Shown here: positions 7,080-63,206 of the stretch, piece after piece | Layout of the letters: each line of letters starts with the position of its first letter | Position numbering within the stretch: position 1 is the stretch's first letter | From: a virus | Length of the DNA stretch: 64,000 nt | Virus record (IMG/VR): IMGVR_UViG_3300029915_000731 | Coordinates: 36,341-100,340 of that record | Direction: 5' to 3' (one strand) | Notes under the pieces: generated by a model | Told to the model about the DNA's origin: nothing | Databases searched by the model: none | Seen by the model: the letters and a program-made list of their open reading frames with translations, nothing else | Position numbers and translations under genes: made by a program

Positions 7080-7664
7080 CTAGTCGGGCAAGGGTAGCGG
7101 CTTCACCTTACGGACTTCCTCGGCGAGTTCTGGGTCTTCTATGCGATAGCTTATCCCACAAAGACACCCCCACCCACGCTCGGCTGCCCGCTCCCGCTCC
7201 CGACGATGGCGAATGGGAGGGAGGCATACGAAGAGGAGGTATCCAAGGCATAGAAAGCAAATCATCATCACAGCAAGGTGGCCGAGTCCGATCTCTCCCG
7301 CACCAAGTCTTTGGCACCAAGCCTTCTCGGTTAAGCCGGTTGAGTCCCCATGGGGCATGTGCCGGTGGGCGTAGCCGATCCATAAAGCCCATGAAACCCC
7401 CACCCCGATAGACCCTAAAACTGTGTAAAACGGAGCTTTAAAAAATAGTATTACGGTGAACAAGACGATGAGCCAAGTGAGGACGGCATCGCCGCTGACC
7501 GCCGCGCCAGTGAATAGCAGGTAGAAGGGGTAGCAAAGGAGGGCGAGAATCGCCGCCAAGAGCAGCAATACGCCCACAACCACGTCGGCAGCGATCTGGA
7601 CGGGTTTTGTGATAATGTCTAAGGCTCCGAAGACTCTCTGCTGCACTTCCCGCTCGTTGCTCAT
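7080..7664 (-). CDS. Small integral membrane protein
   Basis: 194 aa from the ATG at 7664. A GTG four codons upstream lies before the GGAGG ribosome site and is therefore rejected. About four hydrophobic segments are visible: VVVGVLLLLAAILALLCYPF, VLTWLIVLFTVILFF, the VLGSIGVGVSWALWIGYA stretch, and LAVMMICFLCLGYLLFVCLP. They are followed by a basic loop (RHRRERERAAERG) and a cytoplasmic-type tail. It is transcribed against its tail-gene neighbours from its own promoter at 7681-7711. Such isolated phage membrane genes can act in lysis, superinfection exclusion or host takeover, but nothing here decides between these. Confidence 0.75.
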   Translation of the reverse strand: MSNEREVQQRVFGALDIITKPVQIAADVVVGVLLLLAAILALLCYPFYLLFTGAAVSGDAVLTWLIVLFTVILFFKAPFYTVLGSIGVGVSWALWIGYAHRHMPHGDSTGLTEKAWCQRLGAGEIGLGHLAVMMICFLCLGYLLFVCLPPIRHRRERERAAERGWGCLCGISYRIEDPELAEEVRKVKPLPLPD

Positions 7665-7680
7665 AATTACCTCCACTTTT

Positions 7681-7711
7681 AGTATACCAGCCGTTCCGTG
7701 GAATTGTCTAG
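7681..7711 (-). promoter_or_regulatory. Phage promoter P1 (TAGACA-N18-TATACT)
   Basis: On the minus strand the -35 TAGACA (7705-7710, preceded by C) and the -10 TATACT (7681-7686, followed by A) are 18 nt apart. The same boxes and spacing occur at three sites at 61-62 kb. Here a GGAGG ribosome site lies between the -10 box and the ATG at 7664, so the mRNA would have a very short leader, not none. Confidence 0.75.
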
Positions 7712-17257: not shown

Positions 17258-19591
17258 ATGAGTTCTCATGATGACTACACCGTCTATAAGATGCCGATGT
17301 CGGCACCGACCCGGAATGATGCTATGTACCGGGTATTCCTCGCCACGGTTCTCACCGTGGATTACGAGCGAAAGGTGCTTACCCTTGAGAATACCAGCAC
17401 AGGGGTAGTTTACACTGAAGTTGCAGCCCTTCCGGCAAACGCTGATTCTTTCGAGTCCACCGATATTCAAATGCCGGAACAAGGCACAAACTGTCTAGCT
17501 GTCCCCCTTTTTTATCAGGGTGGTTATGTGCAGGTGGCCATCATCAATTACATGGCCTCGCAGACTACGAGAGCCATCGACAACATCGCCATGAAGTCGC
17601 TGCAAAATGTGGAAGGTTACAACGAGCGTAAGCGTGGTAACTACCGCAAGGCGTACCCCGGCCAGAAGACTGTTACCATGTCGCAGGGGTACACAGAGAA
17701 AATCGACATTGGTTGGGATAGGTCTTCTCAAGATTTATCCCGTGATAAATTGGACACCCACCGTCGTACTTGGACGCAGATTACCGGGCGTCGGGTTTCC
17801 TATACTGATGCAGGGTTGGTATTTCAGGGAGCGGTTAATCGCCCCGATGCTACGGGCGTCACCGGGGTCATACTCCCAGACGGCTCTAAGGAATTCGTAG
17901 TATACCTCACGCCGGGGGCTCAACCCACAGACCGTTACGTCTCAGGCAAGCAGGATGTTATCCCCTTCGTTGAGAACACAACTCGCGTGCAGGAGTTCGC
18001 CCTAGACTACCCACTTCCGAACGAGATTCTCCAGACCGATTTACTGGACACCGTGCTGGGCACGACAGCCAACCCGTGGAACCGCACCGTAGTGAAGACT
18101 CTAGGTGGGGTTTCCTACGACGACAACGCCTATCTCATCAACCAGACTTGGGATCATCCAACGCAGGGTAAGCCACTCGGGCCGACTATCGCAGAGGGAA
18201 TCACCCCTAAACGTCGCGGCTTCATGATTGAGAAGTCAGAAGGAACGCTGGTAGGTTACAACCGCTTCGACAAGGGAACTTACGGCAAGGTGCTGAAACC
18301 CGTCTACACCTCCATGGACGTTGCCGGGAGATTCGGAGCCAACTTCGACACAGGCTACAATGGCTGCACGGAGTCCACCGACCATGCGGAAGCCCGACTT
18401 GCGGCCTCGGCTTACTCAGTCCGTTTCGCCTACGAGTACAACACCACTCGCTGGGACATCACCAAGGAGGGATTGGTTCAGTTTGAAATTGGTGCAACCC
18501 TCCCCAAGGAAAACATCAAACTTCAGGGTGGATACGAGCACCCACATGGAGCAGGTCGCTCCATGGAAGGACACCTCGTTGGCTCACTGAAGCTAGTTGT
18601 TGGAAAGAATCGGGATGAGGAAGATGCAATTGATTTGCAAGCCCTTGGTCAGACAGTCCTCCGCCTTGGTGCGGATGATAGGTCGCTACCTGATAGGGGC
18701 CGCGTCGTCCATACCCAGAGTCGGGCTCAAGGGGACGCTTCAACTCCCCGTTCGCTCCAGTATTGGACTTCGCCAAAACTGAAGGCTGCCACGGGCTCCG
18801 ATAGTTACACGCTCGATGCCGGGAGTAAGACAGTGGGGGAGGGAATCTCCCTTCGTCTTGCTACGGATGGGGCTTTAGTGGGTCGTCTCGGGGCTCGTGA
18901 CCCCTTGGTAAAACGCCGCCATTTGATGAACGGTTATTCAGATGGACAGGGAACCCAAAAGGTGGATGTAAACTCAACTACACGGCAAGACTCACATTCC
19001 CCGGGTCGTCCAGCCTACCCAGCCGGGGACACGAACTACGTTTTCAATAAGCGGGACTTTACTCAGGTGGGTTCCCCGCAGATTAAGCCGAACCCGATGA
19101 TTCCCTACCAGCAATGGATGGGCGACCCACTCGCGGGTAAGGGGATGGATGCTCACGGGCTCTCGCTCGATTTACATCTTGTGAGTGACGCTCTTCTTCG
19201 CATCGGACAAAACCCAGCCAGCGGACAATCACTCATTCTCGACCTTGCAGGTGGTGTGGTTCTTGCGGCGGGAGTAGATAAGCAGGGACGCTCTCTAACG
19301 GCGCAACTCGATGGTGGGGTGGAAATGACCATCGGTTCTAACAAATCCAGCCGGGGACTTCGTATCGAAGTGAATGGGGATGTCGATTTTATGGTCAAAG
19401 GCAATCGTCACGACCATGTCACTGGGGTCTACACGCTGGAGTGCTCCGATTTCCGCCAGATTTCAAAAGTAAATCATATCGTTACGGCACAGAATGTCAG
19501 AACGATGGCTTTGGGGAGCATCTACAATGAGTCGCCTGATAACAGTTCGCACAGTGGTGGTTATGGTAATGGCGGGGGGAGTGTTCTCTAA
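17258..19591 (+). CDS. Central spike-like baseplate protein
   Basis: 777 aa. The N-terminal ~120 residues (MYRVFLATVLTVDYERKVLT, PEQGTNCLAVPLF) have an OB-fold-like strand pattern as in gp5/gpV spikes. The last ~200 residues contain repeating short strands with regular Gly and Asp turns (SLILDLAGGVVLAAG, SLTAQLDGGVEMTIG, GLRIEVNGDVDFMVKG), typical of intertwined beta-helix spikes. The end is glycine-rich. Together this fits the membrane-puncturing spike that docks on the hub encoded just upstream. There is no obvious metal-binding HxH tip, so the tip may be a separate protein. Confidence 0.65.
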   Translation: MSSHDDYTVYKMPMSAPTRNDAMYRVFLATVLTVDYERKVLTLENTSTGVVYTEVAALPANADSFESTDIQMPEQGTNCLAVPLFYQGGYVQVAIINYMASQTTRAIDNIAMKSLQNVEGYNERKRGNYRKAYPGQKTVTMSQGYTEKIDIGWDRSSQDLSRDKLDTHRRTWTQITGRRVSYTDAGLVFQGAVNRPDATGVTGVILPDGSKEFVVYLTPGAQPTDRYVSGKQDVIPFVENTTRVQEFALDYPLPNEILQTDLLDTVLGTTANPWNRTVVKTLGGVSYDDNAYLINQTWDHPTQGKPLGPTIAEGITPKRRGFMIEKSEGTLVGYNRFDKGTYGKVLKPVYTSMDVAGRFGANFDTGYNGCTESTDHAEARLAASAYSVRFAYEYNTTRWDITKEGLVQFEIGATLPKENIKLQGGYEHPHGAGRSMEGHLVGSLKLVVGKNRDEEDAIDLQALGQTVLRLGADDRSLPDRGRVVHTQSRAQGDASTPRSLQYWTSPKLKAATGSDSYTLDAGSKTVGEGISLRLATDGALVGRLGARDPLVKRRHLMNGYSDGQGTQKVDVNSTTRQDSHSPGRPAYPAGDTNYVFNKRDFTQVGSPQIKPNPMIPYQQWMGDPLAGKGMDAHGLSLDLHLVSDALLRIGQNPASGQSLILDLAGGVVLAAGVDKQGRSLTAQLDGGVEMTIGSNKSSRGLRIEVNGDVDFMVKGNRHDHVTGVYTLECSDFRQISKVNHIVTAQNVRTMALGSIYNESPDNSSHSGGYGNGGGSVL

Positions 19592-24491: not shown

Positions 24492-25463
24492 TTACCTATT
24501 ACCCTCGTTCAGAAATTTACTTTTCCATCGGTCTTGAGTTTCGGCCCCACCAAACTGTAGTGGCTGTTGCTTCCAAGCTTTGATTCGAGATTCAATTTCA
24601 GGGATGGTAGCTTTGATTCCCCCAATGTCGCGGCGTAGTAGTGCTTGGGCGGTCACAAGAGCCTTTTCAAAGCCGTCCTCGCCCCGTTTGTAGACGCAGG
24701 GGACATCGTGGCTGTAACCGAAACGCTGCTCTTTCTCCCGCTTTGTGCCGTTCACTGAATTCACCTTGCCAGCTTCCATATTAGCGAGGGTTTCTTTGGC
24801 ACGTTGGAGACTGTGCTTCAAGGCGGCGACAAACTCAACAGCCCCCTCGGGCGATAGCTCCCACGCTGTGCATCCAGCCCCGAAGCAGATGCCGTTTCTC
24901 ATACCCCACTTCAGCTCATAGCCATGGGCGACCATCTTCCCATCGAAGGTCAACTTCTGCCGACGCATGCAGACCGGGCATACTCCCGTGTTCTGTTTGT
25001 CACGTTCAATCTGAATCTTTTGTTTGTCGGTGAGGACTGGTGGTTTGCGGCCTTTGACAATGTATGGCTTTGCGTTCTTAACCATCTCAGCTAGGGCTGC
25101 GCCCTCTTCCATCACTTGGAGAACAACGTCGATGTAACCTTCACCCTTAAATTTCTGGAGCTTCTTGACGGCACCCGGAAGATTGTTAAATTGCGGAGTG
25201 TAGATGATACTCCAACGGGGATCAGTGTTATCCCATGTTGGGTGGCCTTCACCCTCGCCGCGACGGATACCCCGCGAGGTCTCTTGTGCATACTCAATGG
25301 CCTCACCTACAACCCGTGAAATGTTCTCCCTAGCGGCCACAAAATCTTGGTTGAAGATTTGCTGGTTGGCGACCCCGGAAGTGAGTGCATTCTTAGCTGC
25401 GGGGAAGTTCTTAGCGTGACGGCTGCTGGCGGCGAAAGCGTCAATCTTGGGTGTTTCAATCAT
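24492..25463 (-). CDS. Hypothetical protein with central zinc-finger motif
   Basis: 323 aa. A cysteine/histidine cluster near residues 160-200 (CPVCMRRQ, then VAHGYELKWG and CFGAGC) probably binds zinc. The flanking regions are charged and helical, and the end has KSKFLNEGNR. No catalytic motif is visible. It lies 17 nt before the hydrolase gene in the same minus-strand unit and follows the 175-aa gene, so the three are probably co-transcribed. The family is not recognised. Confidence 0.65.
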   Translation of the reverse strand: MIETPKIDAFAASSRHAKNFPAAKNALTSGVANQQIFNQDFVAARENISRVVGEAIEYAQETSRGIRRGEGEGHPTWDNTDPRWSIIYTPQFNNLPGAVKKLQKFKGEGYIDVVLQVMEEGAALAEMVKNAKPYIVKGRKPPVLTDKQKIQIERDKQNTGVCPVCMRRQKLTFDGKMVAHGYELKWGMRNGICFGAGCTAWELSPEGAVEFVAALKHSLQRAKETLANMEAGKVNSVNGTKREKEQRFGYSHDVPCVYKRGEDGFEKALVTAQALLRRDIGGIKATIPEIESRIKAWKQQPLQFGGAETQDRWKSKFLNEGNR

Positions 25464-41776: not shown

Positions 41777-42457
41777 ATGGCCTATAAATATGCATATCCG
41801 GGACCACCGTTCCACTTTCTTGGCCATCTAAGCGCTAGTCAGTGGGCGGCGTTCAAGAAGTGGCAAGCGAAGCGTCAAAACTTCGATGCCATCTCTATGC
41901 ACCACCGTATCCGGGCTCAACAGCTACGGAAGACTGCGGGGGTGTTGGAGCAGTTTTACTCCACGGTGAATGACCAAGCCCTCACCCCAAGCCCCGCCGT
42001 CTGGATGCCAGACGGGACGAAGCCTATTTGGAAACCGGGTCCAGCAGGTCACTTCAATTACGCTTATGGGAATGACCACATCCCGATGGTCACCATGAGC
42101 AAAATCAAGAATCAGTACAAGGAACAGCTTCAGCGGGATGAAGAGGGTGTCTTTGCCATGAATCAGGTTCGTTGCTTGATTGAGAAGCATGAGGATGCGG
42201 GTCAGTATAGCTACGAGTTTACCCATCCACAGGACGCCGCCAAAGGATTGACAGGACTGTTGTCCAAAATTGATAGTCTTTTCGCAAAACCAGAGTACAG
42301 GACTGTTCTAGTGAGCGACCTGACAGATTTGAATAACGGGCTGCCACAAGCTCGTGTAAATCAGGCTGACGACATGGTTCCGGCTGAGCTTGATAATTTC
42401 AACCACTCGAAATCCTACCCATATGGTGGGATGGAGCAGGGGGATTTTCAACCATGA
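41777..42457 (+). CDS. Hypothetical baseplate-region protein
   Basis: 226 aa, not recognised. The N-terminus is aromatic-rich (YAYPGPPFHFLGHLSASQWA). A helical basic stretch (KKWQAKRQNFDAISMHHRIR) and a long central helix region follow. AAGGAG lies 6 nt before the ATG. Its stop overlaps the next ATG (ATGA), tying it to the W-J-I-like wedge genes. A baseplate wedge accessory role is inferred from place only. Confidence 0.6.
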   Translation: MAYKYAYPGPPFHFLGHLSASQWAAFKKWQAKRQNFDAISMHHRIRAQQLRKTAGVLEQFYSTVNDQALTPSPAVWMPDGTKPIWKPGPAGHFNYAYGNDHIPMVTMSKIKNQYKEQLQRDEEGVFAMNQVRCLIEKHEDAGQYSYEFTHPQDAAKGLTGLLSKIDSLFAKPEYRTVLVSDLTDLNNGLPQARVNQADDMVPAELDNFNHSKSYPYGGMEQGDFQP

Positions 42458-59376: not shown

Positions 59377-59432
59377 CTCAGCCAAGACCTGTGTAAACCA
59401 AGTCCCTGCTGCTTTCAAATGCATCCAGTGGG
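59376..59432 (+). pseudogene. N-terminal fragment of the methyltransferase-like gene
   Basis: The 57 nt are about 70% identical to the start region of the gene at 63374 and encode SAKTCVNQVPAAFKCIQW against SAMTCVNQVPATFKTIDW there. No start codon or continuation remains; the homology ends where the TnpB fragment begins. Confidence 0.6.
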
Positions 59433-59568
59433 AGCGAGGGGCAGTGAGTTCATCTGCCTATCTTGTGGGCATCGGGATAATGCAGACCACAATGGAGCAA
59501 TCAACATCTTGGGACGGAGCGTCCCACTAGACGTTAACGTGAGCGGAGTAACGCTGTGCGTAGTCTAG
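59433..59568 (+). pseudogene. C-terminal remnant of a second tnpB
   Basis: In the frame ending at TAG 59566 the sequence reads EFICLSCGHRDNADHNGAIN followed by ILGR, the zinc-ribbon half and RuvC-III Asp region of TnpB (FxCxxCGHxDNADxNAAxNI). Everything upstream is lost. The residues differ from the tnpB at 50062 (GADHDRDVNAARN), so this was a different element, closer to the canonical type. Confidence 0.8.
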
Positions 59569-59701: not shown

Positions 59702-60174
59702 TGAGCCGCACCGTGCGTAACGAGAAGTATCTCTTTGAGTTCGTACCCTCGTGTCAAGCCGAAGCCCATAGAGTTCCAGCCGAAGCAAATGGCGATACCG
59801 CCCGGTTTGAGCATTCTATCGAGGCCGTCTTTCACCCGCTTGTAGAGCCGCCCGTTTTGAGTGTCCTGTGTACCACACTTCCGTCCAATTTGCTGATAGC
59901 ATTCGGAAATTTGTCTGGGACTATAAGGCGGGTCGAAAAGCACCACGTCGGCACTAACAATAACCTGCTCTACAAAATCCTCGGCAAGCATGTGATATTG
60001 AGCAGTCGTGGCGGGGTTGAGGTCATTCGTCACCGTACCCCTAGTGGAGTTTCTGGCAAAGGGGTCAACAATTACTTGCCCTTCAGTGAGCCATCTGTCA
60101 AGTAACCGCTTGACCGGGGGCAGAGAGAACGTCTCCGCGTTGCCCATCGCAAACTCACGGTTCCATGAAATCAT
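59653..60174 (-). CDS. DNA adenine (N6) methyltransferase
   Basis: 173 aa. QVIVDPFARNS near residue 35 is a SAM-binding motif I-type strand and loop, and VVLFDPPYSPRQ near residue 80 is the DPPY catalytic motif of amino-methyltransferases. A GGIAICFGWNS strand follows. The protein is short and has no clear target-recognition domain, as in compact phage Dam-like enzymes. It would modify phage DNA against restriction or for regulation. The start overlaps the preceding gene by 20 nt. The last codons run into 25-bp tandem repeats (VTVERKNVGTV), so the C-terminus may vary. Confidence 0.82.
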   Translation of the reverse strand: MISWNREFAMGNAETFSLPPVKRLLDRWLTEGQVIVDPFARNSTRGTVTNDLNPATTAQYHMLAEDFVEQVIVSADVVLFDPPYSPRQISECYQQIGRKCGTQDTQNGRLYKRVKDGLDRMLKPGGIAICFGWNSMGFGLTRGYELKEILLVTHGAAHNDTIVTVERKNVGTV

Positions 60175-60985
60175 ACTTTCGCTTTAGCTGCTGATTGACA
60201 TGACCGAGGTCACCCAACTTAATATACGGTATTTGTTGGACTCCGAGTTGAGACGCGGCGTGGATACGGTGCCGACCATCAGCAATATGCCCCTTTTCAT
60301 CCACGATTGCCGGGGGCATACGCTCTCCCTGTTGCATGGACTTCTTCATCTCATCCACATGGGGTTGCCCCCGGTTATCTCCAGCATCATCCCCCAGTCC
60401 CCAACCAGATATGTGCTTCATAGCGGTAGCGGTGGGCATCAGGTACACTGAAATGGGCGCGTCCCAATCAGGGTCGTCTTCGACCGGGGGTTCCATTGCT
60501 TCCGCCAAGTCGCTTACTAATTGAACAAAGTCGGGAAAATCACCCTCTAGGGAGCTAAGAACGACGGAGCCAACTGCTGGATGAGCCCAGTCACAACCAT
60601 TCTGCAAGTCTGCGGTCTTCTTCAAAAACTTAGATTCAAACCCCGTTTTGCCTTTCCCTCGCAGAGCAATCAACTCATCTTTGCCGCTGGCAAACTTGCC
60701 CTTCTTCTTAGAGTAGGGGGTTGGAATCTCAATCCCTCGCTTGAACATCCCGTAGTCGAGGACGGAGCTGAGGCTCTTCCCATGCCCCACCAGCCAGAAG
60801 GTGCCAAAGTCGGCGTACCAATCCTTGCGGGGTGCCATCTGGGGCTCAGCGCACCATTTGCGGCACACCACGACGCCCTCAAGGTTGTAGACCCGTTGCT
60901 TGAGGCGAAGTATGATGTGAGCCATGATGTGCTCAGGAACTTGGGTAAAATTAATCGGGCAGGAGAATACCGGGAGGGACGGCAT
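60155..60985 (-). CDS. ParB-like domain protein
   Basis: 276 aa. The C-terminal part (residues ~190-265) matches the ParB/sulfiredoxin-like fold: a VDEMKKSMQQGERMPPAIVD segment, then GHIADGRHRIHAASQLGVQ and IPYIKL, with the GRHR motif that binds nucleotide or phosphate in this superfamily. The N-terminal ~110 residues are a separate basic domain (YADFGTFWLVGHGKSLSSVL). SKFLKKTADLQN sits between the two, the motif also seen in neighbours. The ATG overlaps the stop of the 58-aa gene, so the two are coupled, and the adenine methyltransferase follows. Modification or nucleotide-sensing roles are possible. Confidence 0.65.
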   Translation of the reverse strand: MPSLPVFSCPINFTQVPEHIMAHIILRLKQRVYNLEGVVVCRKWCAEPQMAPRKDWYADFGTFWLVGHGKSLSSVLDYGMFKRGIEIPTPYSKKKGKFASGKDELIALRGKGKTGFESKFLKKTADLQNGCDWAHPAVGSVVLSSLEGDFPDFVQLVSDLAEAMEPPVEDDPDWDAPISVYLMPTATAMKHISGWGLGDDAGDNRGQPHVDEMKKSMQQGERMPPAIVDEKGHIADGRHRIHAASQLGVQQIPYIKLGDLGHVNQQLKRKYDFMEP

Positions 60986-61161
60986 TAGACGAGTTCCGCA
61001 CCCTCTCCGAAGATGAACTTGGCGAACTCTGCCTCAGCAGCCTTGAGGTCTTCAGGGCTGGCGGCACGCTCGATGCGCGAGAGGTAACCCTCAATCGTCA
61101 GGGTGGCGGACTTCAGTTCAGAAGCGGTCACCATCTTCGAGGCTGTCTTAAGCTTGTCCAT
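60985..61161 (-). CDS. Small leaderless-type gene, 58-aa protein
   Basis: 58 aa, beginning MDKLKTASKMVTASELKSAT and ending acidic (EFAKFIFGEGAELV), mostly helical. The ATG at 61161 follows the -10 box of P2 by exactly 6 nt and has no ribosome site, which predicts translation from a leaderless mRNA. The stop overlaps the next ATG (TAATG), linking it to the ParB-like gene. The KTA-type N-terminus is shared with other proteins of the region. Function unknown. Confidence 0.75.
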   Translation of the reverse strand: MDKLKTASKMVTASELKSATLTIEGYLSRIERAASPEDLKAAEAEFAKFIFGEGAELV

Positions 61162-61167
61162 GTCTAT

Positions 61168-61198
61168 AGTATACTGGGGGAACCAAGATTTTGTCTAG
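61168..61198 (-). promoter_or_regulatory. Phage promoter P2 (TAGACA-N18-TATACT)
   Basis: -35 at 61192-61197, -10 at 61168-61173, 18-nt spacer, A after the -10 box. The ATG of the 58-aa gene begins 6 nt downstream of the box, at the expected transcription start. Confidence 0.85.
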
Positions 61199-61241
61199 AG
61201 TTATTCCCTACTATGGGGCGGAAAGTCCTGTTTTGCACTGC

Positions 61242-61493
61242 TTAATCAGTGTCGAGGGTCTCCAAATGGTGGATTAGTGCAATTGCATCCCGCACAGTGA
61301 TATTCCTTACCACCAGAATATACTCCTTAAAGAGGAACCCATCATTCTCAAGGTCGAAGTCTAGACCCTGCATGAGGCAGTAACGTTTAATCATACCCAT
61401 CGGGTAGAGAAAACCTGCCTCTATGGTGACAGCCAGCCGCTTCACCTTGCCGGAGCTGCTCTGTAGCCGCCGTTTCGTTTCTTCCGTGGTCAT
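61242..61493 (-). CDS. Small hypothetical protein
   Basis: 83 aa from the ATG at 61493, 5 nt after a perfect AGGAGG that overlaps the stop of the upstream membrane peptide gene; a GTG one codon earlier is too close. The N-terminus is basic (EETKRRLQSSSGKVKRLAV) and the rest alpha/beta (YILVVRNITVRDAIALIHHL). Family not recognised. It shares a transcript with the 38-aa gene from P3 and is the one gene in this cluster with a classic ribosome site. Confidence 0.7.
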   Translation of the reverse strand: MTTEETKRRLQSSSGKVKRLAVTIEAGFLYPMGMIKRYCLMQGLDFDLENDGFLFKEYILVVRNITVRDAIALIHHLETLDTD

Positions 61494-61502
61494 CACTACC
61501 TC

Positions 61503-61619
61503 CTAGTGGTTAAATATGAAGTAGCTCGCAAAGCACATCGCGTACGCTATGGCGAGCACGATGCCCAAGAAAACGAAACCCCTGAATCCATCTAGTGCGT
61601 GGTTCGCATGGTTTTTCAT
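61503..61619 (-). CDS. 38-aa single-span membrane peptide (leaderless type)
   Basis: The peptide begins MKNHANHALDGFRG and continues with one hydrophobic span (FVFLGIVLAIAYAMCFASYF), ending FNH. The ATG lies exactly 6 nt after the P3 -10 box without a ribosome site. Such tiny early membrane peptides often modulate host membrane complexes, but the target is unknown. It is co-transcribed with the 83-aa gene 9 nt downstream. Confidence 0.7.
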   Translation of the reverse strand: MKNHANHALDGFRGFVFLGIVLAIAYAMCFASYFIFNH

Positions 61620-61625
61620 ACCAGT

Positions 61626-61656
61626 AGTATACCCGGAGGACCGCCTATTTGGCTAG
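61626..61656 (-). promoter_or_regulatory. Phage promoter P3 (TAGCCA-N18-TATACT)
   Basis: -35 at 61650-61655, -10 at 61626-61631, 18-nt spacer, A after the box, ATG 6 nt downstream. It begins just after the stop of the 53-aa zinc protein gene. Confidence 0.82.
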
Positions 61657-61658
61657 TA

Positions 61659-61820
61659 TTATTCCTGACTAACATGGCCGTTGCGGGCACACTTACAGGG
61701 AGTCTCCCACGGCGTGGTCTCTTCAGCAATCCCGGTGCAACGCTCGCACTGACCTAACTTGCAGTCAGTGCAGGTTTGGAGACGTTTGGGCTTCGGTTCA
61801 GTCGCTCTTGTAATCTTCAT
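61659..61820 (-). CDS. 53-aa zinc-binding-type small protein (leaderless type)
   Basis: 53 aa with six cysteines in pairs: CTDC (17/20), CERC (25/28) and CKC (42/44), plus a His near the end, which suggests one or two zinc sites. The ATG at 61820 follows the P4 -10 box by exactly 6 nt and has no ribosome site. Small zinc-ribbon proteins of early phage regions often bind host polymerase or DNA; here this is only a possibility. Confidence 0.72.
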   Translation of the reverse strand: MKITRATEPKPKRLQTCTDCKLGQCERCTGIAEETTPWETPCKCARNGHVSQE

Positions 61821-61826
61821 ACTTGT

Positions 61827-61857
61827 AGTATACCAAGAGGGGTGGGATTTAGTCTAG
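61827..61857 (-). promoter_or_regulatory. Phage promoter P4 (TAGACT-N18-TATACT)
   Basis: -35 at 61851-61856, -10 at 61827-61832, 18-nt spacer, A after the box, ATG 6 nt downstream. The upstream 53-aa gene ends at 61863, just ahead of it. Confidence 0.85.
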
Positions 61858-62465: not shown

Positions 62466-63206
62466 ATGGCCCTCTACACTGTCTACAAAACAATCGACAC
62501 CCGAAATGAACACTACTACCTTGGCGTGCATAAAACCGCTAACCCCAACGATTCCTATTATGGGTCGGGCACCATTATCCGTAACCTCCTCGCCAAACAC
62601 GGGGAAGGCATTCTCCGAAAAGAAATTTTGTTCATCTACCCAACTGGAGAAGAAGCGTATGCCAAAGAGGATGAGTTGGTCGTGGTCTTTATCAACGACC
62701 CCCTCTGTTACAACCTGAGAAAAGGGGGACTCGGGGGGTTTGACTATATAAATAGAAATGGGTTACACAGGAGAGCACTTCCAGAAGTTGAAGCTGAAAA
62801 TGGAAAGCGGCTACAAAAATGGAGAGTGGGATTATCTCCCGAAGAACGACTTAAACTGAGCAGAGATGCGAATGCCCACTGGAGAGGAAAACACCACTCC
62901 CCCTCCTCGCTTGAAAAACTAAGTGCGGCTAGAAAAGGAAACAACAGTAGACAAGGGACTCGTTGGGTATACAACCTGAAATCAGGTCAAAAACGGCTAG
63001 TACCCGCCGATGAGGTAGACAGTCTCATTACGGAGGAGTGGGTGACCGGAAAGCTGAAAAAGAATAAATCTGCATCCAACTACGGGAAGCTGTGGATAAA
63101 TAACGGAACCATCAATAAGCTCATCAAACCCGCTGAATTAGCAGATTACACCGGGTGGGTGCGGGGTAGGCTCGACCCGTTTCAGCGTCATAACCGCTCT
63201 GTGTGA
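62466..63206 (+). CDS. GIY-YIG homing endonuclease
   Basis: 246 aa. The N-terminal domain has YTVYKTI (GIY position), YYLGVHKTA (YIG position) and the following YYGSGTIIRNLLAKHG and KEILF strands, the phage GIY-YIG arrangement with an Arg/Glu-containing core. The C-terminal half contains NUMOD-like DNA-binding segments: SPSSLEKLSAARKG and RWVYNLKSGQK, then LWINNGTINKLIKP with GWVRGR. Such enzymes cut intron-less or intron-containing alleles and spread by repair. It is free-standing, on the opposite strand to the early genes, beside fragments of a methyltransferase gene. No good ribosome site is seen. Confidence 0.82.
   Translation: MALYTVYKTIDTRNEHYYLGVHKTANPNDSYYGSGTIIRNLLAKHGEGILRKEILFIYPTGEEAYAKEDELVVVFINDPLCYNLRKGGLGGFDYINRNGLHRRALPEVEAENGKRLQKWRVGLSPEERLKLSRDANAHWRGKHHSPSSLEKLSAARKGNNSRQGTRWVYNLKSGQKRLVPADEVDSLITEEWVTGKLKKNKSASNYGKLWINNGTINKLIKPAELADYTGWVRGRLDPFQRHNRSV

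Follow-up and report, generated by a model that had tools for sequence, protein, structure and literature searches.

The 64,000-nt window analysed here, which covers positions 36341-100340 of a linear viral contig of 100,340 bases, carries phage promoters that very probably fix the start of transcription either on a start codon or on a Shine-Dalgarno (SD) sequence, the predicted leaderless messages using a pathway of the host. The proposed promoter is of the sigma-70 type and would be rigidly spaced, with 18 bp between the -35 element and the -10 hexamer and a further 6 bp to the transcription start. Where the start is the A of an ATG, a leaderless mRNA would be made and translated by the host's ordinary 5'-AUG initiation; where it is a purine-rich SD sequence, a short leader would result. 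A clade of jumbo-type phages whose hosts are probably Acidobacteriota seems to share the layout, with box sequences that vary between phages. An earlier note on this DNA had proposed a family of phage promoters whose mRNAs were predicted to be leaderless, and the proposal gained from further copies, conserved starts in relatives and a cultured phage with the same layout. We infer the exact 5' ends, translation, host, timing and promoter reader from sequence.

The earlier note had placed three boxes on the minus strand of the window, and all three fit CTAG[AC]C[AT]-N18-TATACT-N6-ATG. They are given here with a fourth, leadered box:

61168..61198, minus strand: promoter box 1, CTAGACA-N18-TATACT, predicted transcription start 61161
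61626..61656, minus strand: promoter box 2, CTAGCCA-N18-TATACT, predicted transcription start 61619
61827..61857, minus strand: promoter box 3, CTAGACT-N18-TATACT, predicted transcription start 61820
7681..7711, minus strand: box 4 of the leadered type, CTAGACA-N18-TATACT, GGAGG starting at the ATG position of the leaderless copies

The gap from TATACT to the ATG is exactly 6 nt at all three sites of boxes 1 to 3 (ATGs at 61161, 61619 and 61820). The absence of a ribosome site at these ATGs was also borne out, since the gap is too short for an SD sequence; neighbouring window genes have one (AGGAG before 62024, GGAGG before 61493). The window has three occurrences of TATACT-N6-ATG where 0.27 would be expected, and shuffled sequences never reached three. 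The looser TANNNT-N6-ATG was not enriched within the window, and the signal is therefore carried by the full box. A scan of the whole record, which the earlier note had proposed as a check, found six copies of TAG[AC]C[AT]-N17/18-TATACT, all on the minus strand. Simulated sequence gave 0.05 boxes per genome, with an ATG at N6 after the box in none of 60 simulations. Four of the six copies are of the leaderless type (the three window sites and a further copy at genome position 2176, before an 89-aa ORF) and two are leadered (genome position 25464 and window position 7686). The claim of an exactly 18-nt spacer holds for five of the six and fails for the copy at 2176, where it is 17 nt. The -10 hexamer is TATACT in all six copies, close to TATAAT, and the -35 element TAG[AC]C[AT] shows one to three mismatches to TTGACA with a spacer of 17-18 bp, both typical of sigma-70 promoters. 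The -10 hexamer is placed so that +1 would be the A of the start codon at four sites in this record, in many relatives and in eight annotated genes of Tunturiibacter phage Tunturi_5 (described below). As expected of leaderless genes, no SD sequence was seen upstream of the start; the promoter occupies its place.

The two leadered copies fix the same position in another way. The copy at genome 25464 (helicase) reads TATACT-ACAAGT-GGAGAGAAGATAA-ATG and the copy at window 7686 (194 aa) reads TATACT-AAAAGT-GGAGGTAATT-ATG; in both, the first base of the SD sequence takes the exact position that the ATG has in the leaderless copies. This shared position gives good support, from within the record, to a single transcription start 7 nt past the hexamer. 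One promoter type is thus predicted to serve leaderless genes and, with a very short leader, SD-led sister genes, and because the latter would be driven by the same promoter it is not a leaderless-only promoter.

The genes concerned, with two downstream ORFs and one conserved gene elsewhere in the window, are:

60985..61161, minus strand: 58-aa ORF, predicted leaderless, ATG 6 nt past the -10 hexamer, TAATG overlap with the next ORF
60155..60985, minus strand: 276-aa ORF without an SD sequence of its own, overlapping the 58-aa stop codon (TAATG)
61503..61619, minus strand: 38-aa ORF for a membrane-like peptide, ATG at N6, predicted leaderless
61242..61493, minus strand: 83-aa ORF with a strong SD sequence (AGGAGG), downstream of the 38-aa ORF
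61659..61820, minus strand: 53-aa six-cysteine ORF, ATG at N6, predicted leaderless
7080..7664, minus strand: 194-aa membrane-like protein behind box 4, SD-led in the window phage
24492..25463, minus strand: 323-aa gene, the window copy of ambiguous type, reading TAGGAT-N4-ATG

The three products behind boxes 1 to 3 match their earlier description: a 58-aa protein, a 38-aa peptide with a single hydrophobic stretch and a 53-aa protein containing six cysteines. Codon usage of the 58-aa ORF scores above every shadow frame, which is strong coding support; that of the 38-aa and 53-aa ORFs is neutral, with scores within noise. A homologue search with these two ORFs found none, nor did a search for viral relatives of the 58-aa protein. 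The 276-aa ORF is probably translationally coupled to the 58-aa ORF, and its residues 5-87 match part of Tunturi_5 gp321 (35% identity, E 7e-8), a distant homologue.

Related phages in IMG/VR show the same arrangement. A 999-aa protein is common to fifteen IMG/VR loci, and the contigs of relatives reach 231-265 kb, compared with 100 kb for the window record. In relative G008 the window-phage box is present three times, once ahead of a 344-aa gene with its ATG at N6, once ahead of an SD-led gene and once ahead of a tRNA cluster. In G002, TAGCTA-N18-TATACT stands before an SD-led homologue of the window 194-aa gene and before the same helicase. G010 (231 kb) has TGTTCA-N18-TATACT or close variants with an ATG at N6 before proteins of 95-357 aa, and G005 has TAGAAT-type hexamers with an ATG at N6 before four genes. 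An extended-box scan of viral contigs found 19 stretches whose boxes were preselected for the 18-nt spacer; non-preselected boxes near these stretches also have a spacer of 18, with few exceptions. In two protein families (110-142 aa, 43-92% identity across contigs) the alignment starts with residue 1, on the N6-ATG, in three contigs, and this is the best evidence that such predicted start codons are real. The orthologues of the 323-aa gene (24492-25463) are N6-leaderless in G008, G010, G002, G005 and Tunturi_5, five phages with differing box sequences, whereas G004 has an SD-led version. For the 194-aa gene, the window phage, G008 and G002 have an SD sequence and G010 a leaderless start. Counted crudely over all genes, the N6 peak is weak in several relatives and in the window record, because few genes are involved. 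The earlier note had expected the N6 rule before small genes; the three window products are indeed small, but leaderless genes of relatives include those for proteins of 110-453 aa. A loose box scan giving 119 stretches was dropped as evidence, being near chance by our own estimate of the collection size.

The closest annotated and cultured relative is Tunturi_5 (GenBank accession number PP885688.1), a 308,711-bp jumbo phage of Acidobacteriota (PMC11924767). It shares homologous structural and replication proteins with the window phage: the 777-aa window protein (17258-19588) shows 54% identity over 97% of its length and the helicase 37%. A search of genome_contigs found no relative of the 777-aa protein, and most window proteins tested, large structural candidates included, lack a PHROG match. 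In Tunturi_5 the box pair TCATCT-N18-TAGGTT occurs in 28 copies; none of the other spacings between 12 and 24 gave a copy. The promoters are near-identical, CCAAA[GT]TCATCTTT..TAGGTTGA, for example at 42275 (minus strand) and 53556 (plus strand). Nine of the 28 copies have an ATG at N6, and eight of these are start codons annotated in GenBank (gp11, gp41, gp46, gp61 DNA ligase, gp62, gp102, gp188 and gp318 RecT-like). The remaining copies mostly carry GAGG or a similar purine-rich SD sequence at the position of the N6-ATG. The two phages therefore have the same geometry (-35, 18 bp, -10, 6 bp, ATG or SD) with different boxes, TCATCT and TAGGTT in Tunturi_5. The box of the window phage is absent from Tunturi_5, and the Tunturi_5 box has 31 matches in IMG/VR, none in an evident promoter context. 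Genes behind the Tunturi_5 promoters include DNA ligase, DNA methyltransferase, RecT-like and similar genes, a set that suggests early or middle timing. The words 'promoter' and 'leaderless' are absent from the text of the Tunturi paper (PMC11924767). This phage with many predicted leaderless genes also has gp58 and gp297 annotated as peptide deformylase and ribosomal protein S6 modification enzyme; a link of the two to translation is possible.

The host of the window phage is probably acidobacterial, one of the soil Acidobacteria, because its distant nearest isolate Tunturi_5 infects Acidobacteriota. Leaderless genes were predicted in three of three acidobacterial genomes, with a mean of 13.3% (PMC3160421). 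In 800 kb of Edaphobacter lichenicola M8UP30 (Tunturiibacter-related), TANNNT peaks at a distance of exactly N6 from the start codon that follows; 25 genes have it there, compared with a background of about 6. In 60 host-family genomes (match counts are sums over the tabulated columns), TTGACA-N17-TANAMT had 150 matches vs 29 in the control and the N18 version 119 vs 50. The window-phage box (2 vs 9 control matches) and the Tunturi_5 box (5 vs 6) were not enriched in the same genomes. From the N6 peak, the published prediction and the absence of the phage boxes, it seems that the host group uses leaderless genes without these phage promoter sequences. The earlier suggestion of a host that translates leaderless mRNAs well agrees with the prediction and with the peak in a host-group genome.

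As to what reads the promoters, a sigma factor or activator specified by the phage is slightly favoured over unaided host sigma-A, because the spacer is exact, the -35 shifts and the boxes are absent from host genomes. Unaided host sigma-A is given a little under an even chance, since the window-phage hexamers lie near consensus. In its full form, this alternative holds that the boxes are ordinary strong promoters, that the 18-bp spacer is a phage preference and that leaderless translation is a host habit; it is plausible, if clearly short of an even chance. TAGACA and TATACT are each one base off the sigma-70 consensus, and both 17-bp and 18-bp spacers behind TTGACA are tolerated in host-family genomes. 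On the other side, 17 bp is the spacer that the host prefers, the exact phage boxes are not enriched in the 60 host-family genomes, and TCATCT/TAGGTT is far from consensus, yet it occurs in 28 Tunturi_5 copies with an invariant spacer. A sigma factor that has both region 2 and region 4 is encoded in the window record (genome 33442-34071; L006:15142-15771, minus strand) and is a candidate reader of some phage promoters; Tunturi_5 is annotated with two sigma factors. Dependence on a phage sigma factor is not established by this, since a search for sigma region 2 found it only in the window record and Tunturi_5, and in neither G008 nor G010. We consider it an even bet that this acidobacterial jumbo-phage clade has a promoter class of its own, served by a phage-specified factor, in which the geometry (18-bp spacer, 6 bp to the start) is kept while -35 and -10 change between phages and genes switch between a leaderless AUG and a 5'-terminal SD sequence at a fixed start.

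Other readings of the layout have less in their favour. The earlier note had allowed for a phage-modified ribosome state, and an infection-time change of the ribosome or initiation factors that favours leaderless mRNAs has a precedent in what was proposed for Thermus phage phiYS40 (cited in PMC3594737); the Tunturi_5 peptide deformylase and S6-modifying enzyme would be in keeping with it. Such a change is unnecessary because the presumed host already uses leaderless genes, as the N6 signal of the host group indicates, and many SD genes lie behind the same promoter in the same phages; we regard it as unlikely. Even less probable is a coincidental N6-ATG, with transcription starting elsewhere or the true start codons lying downstream of it. 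The three small window proteins have no homologues and two of the three ORFs have neutral codon usage, as a coincidence would allow, but an N6-ATG after the box is absent from simulated sequence, protein conservation in relatives starts at this ATG, eight annotated Tunturi_5 starts lie at N6, and the SD position in leadered copies points to the same start site. That the conserved box is an operator or another protein-binding site is very improbable: conservation does exceed the two hexamers (an A-run after -35, GG before -10), whereas the two-box layout is asymmetric with fixed spacing, the boxes lie on the coding strand immediately ahead of genes and tRNA clusters, and TATACT is -10-like.

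Transcription of lambda cI from PRM begins at the AUG, as predicted here, for a single gene rather than a promoter family. The T4 middle promoters (MotA/AsiA) are repeated phage promoters that combine a sigma-70-like -10 with a phage-specific element close to -35; they resemble the window-phage promoters in these respects and differ in that T4 middle mRNAs are leadered. AsiA is treated in PMC7403470. Bacterial leaderless genes in which the -10 lies directly before the start codon are known from several phyla (PMC3160421; for Deinococcus-Thermus, PMC12340547). They share with the phage genes a TANNNT about 12 bp before the start codon and the lack of an SD sequence, and the published prediction includes Acidobacteria; the phage differs in its repeated promoter, strict -35, 18-bp spacer and additional use of SD leaders. 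For phiYS40, leaderless middle and late mRNAs were measured and a change of IF2/IF3 was proposed (cited in PMC3594737). Like the window phage it is large, has numerous leaderless transcripts and belongs to a host group with leaderless genes; its transcripts were measured, whereas the window-phage starts are predicted and would not need an IF2/IF3-type change. Neither the phiYS40 account (PMC3594737) nor the leaderless-gene papers (PMC3160421, PMC12340547) describe a phage promoter that works in two modes and keeps its spacing rigid while its sequence changes, and a promoter class of this kind, its geometry conserved while its sequence diverges, appears to be undescribed. Literature searches found no transcription study of acidobacterial phages, and few cases of measured leaderless initiation in phages are known. 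Tunturi_5 and Tunturiibacter are a cultured pair with 28 near-identical promoters that differ mainly at +1, so that a single infection allows the two kinds of initiation, leaderless and SD, to be compared behind the same promoter. The layout also offers a practical start-codon rule for small genes of these phages and a lead on the factor that fixes the 18-bp spacer.

Several other features of the record were noted. A 49-aa ORF (window 59419-59568, plus strand) matches TnpB/Cas12f-like proteins in their C-terminal zinc-finger part (PF07282, E 9.5e-7) and is probably a transposon remnant. The 246-aa protein at window 62466-63206 (plus strand) gave no significant Pfam match; it has several relatives per phage genome in the clade, like mobile homing-type genes. 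The PhoH protein (L005:6677-8395, minus strand) has two matching stretches separated by a LAGLIDADG domain, which suggests an intein. The record has 21 tRNA genes, including seven for tRNA-Leu (L005:3234-4826 and L006:10586-14684, minus strand), and in G008 a tRNA cluster lies directly behind a promoter of the window-phage family.
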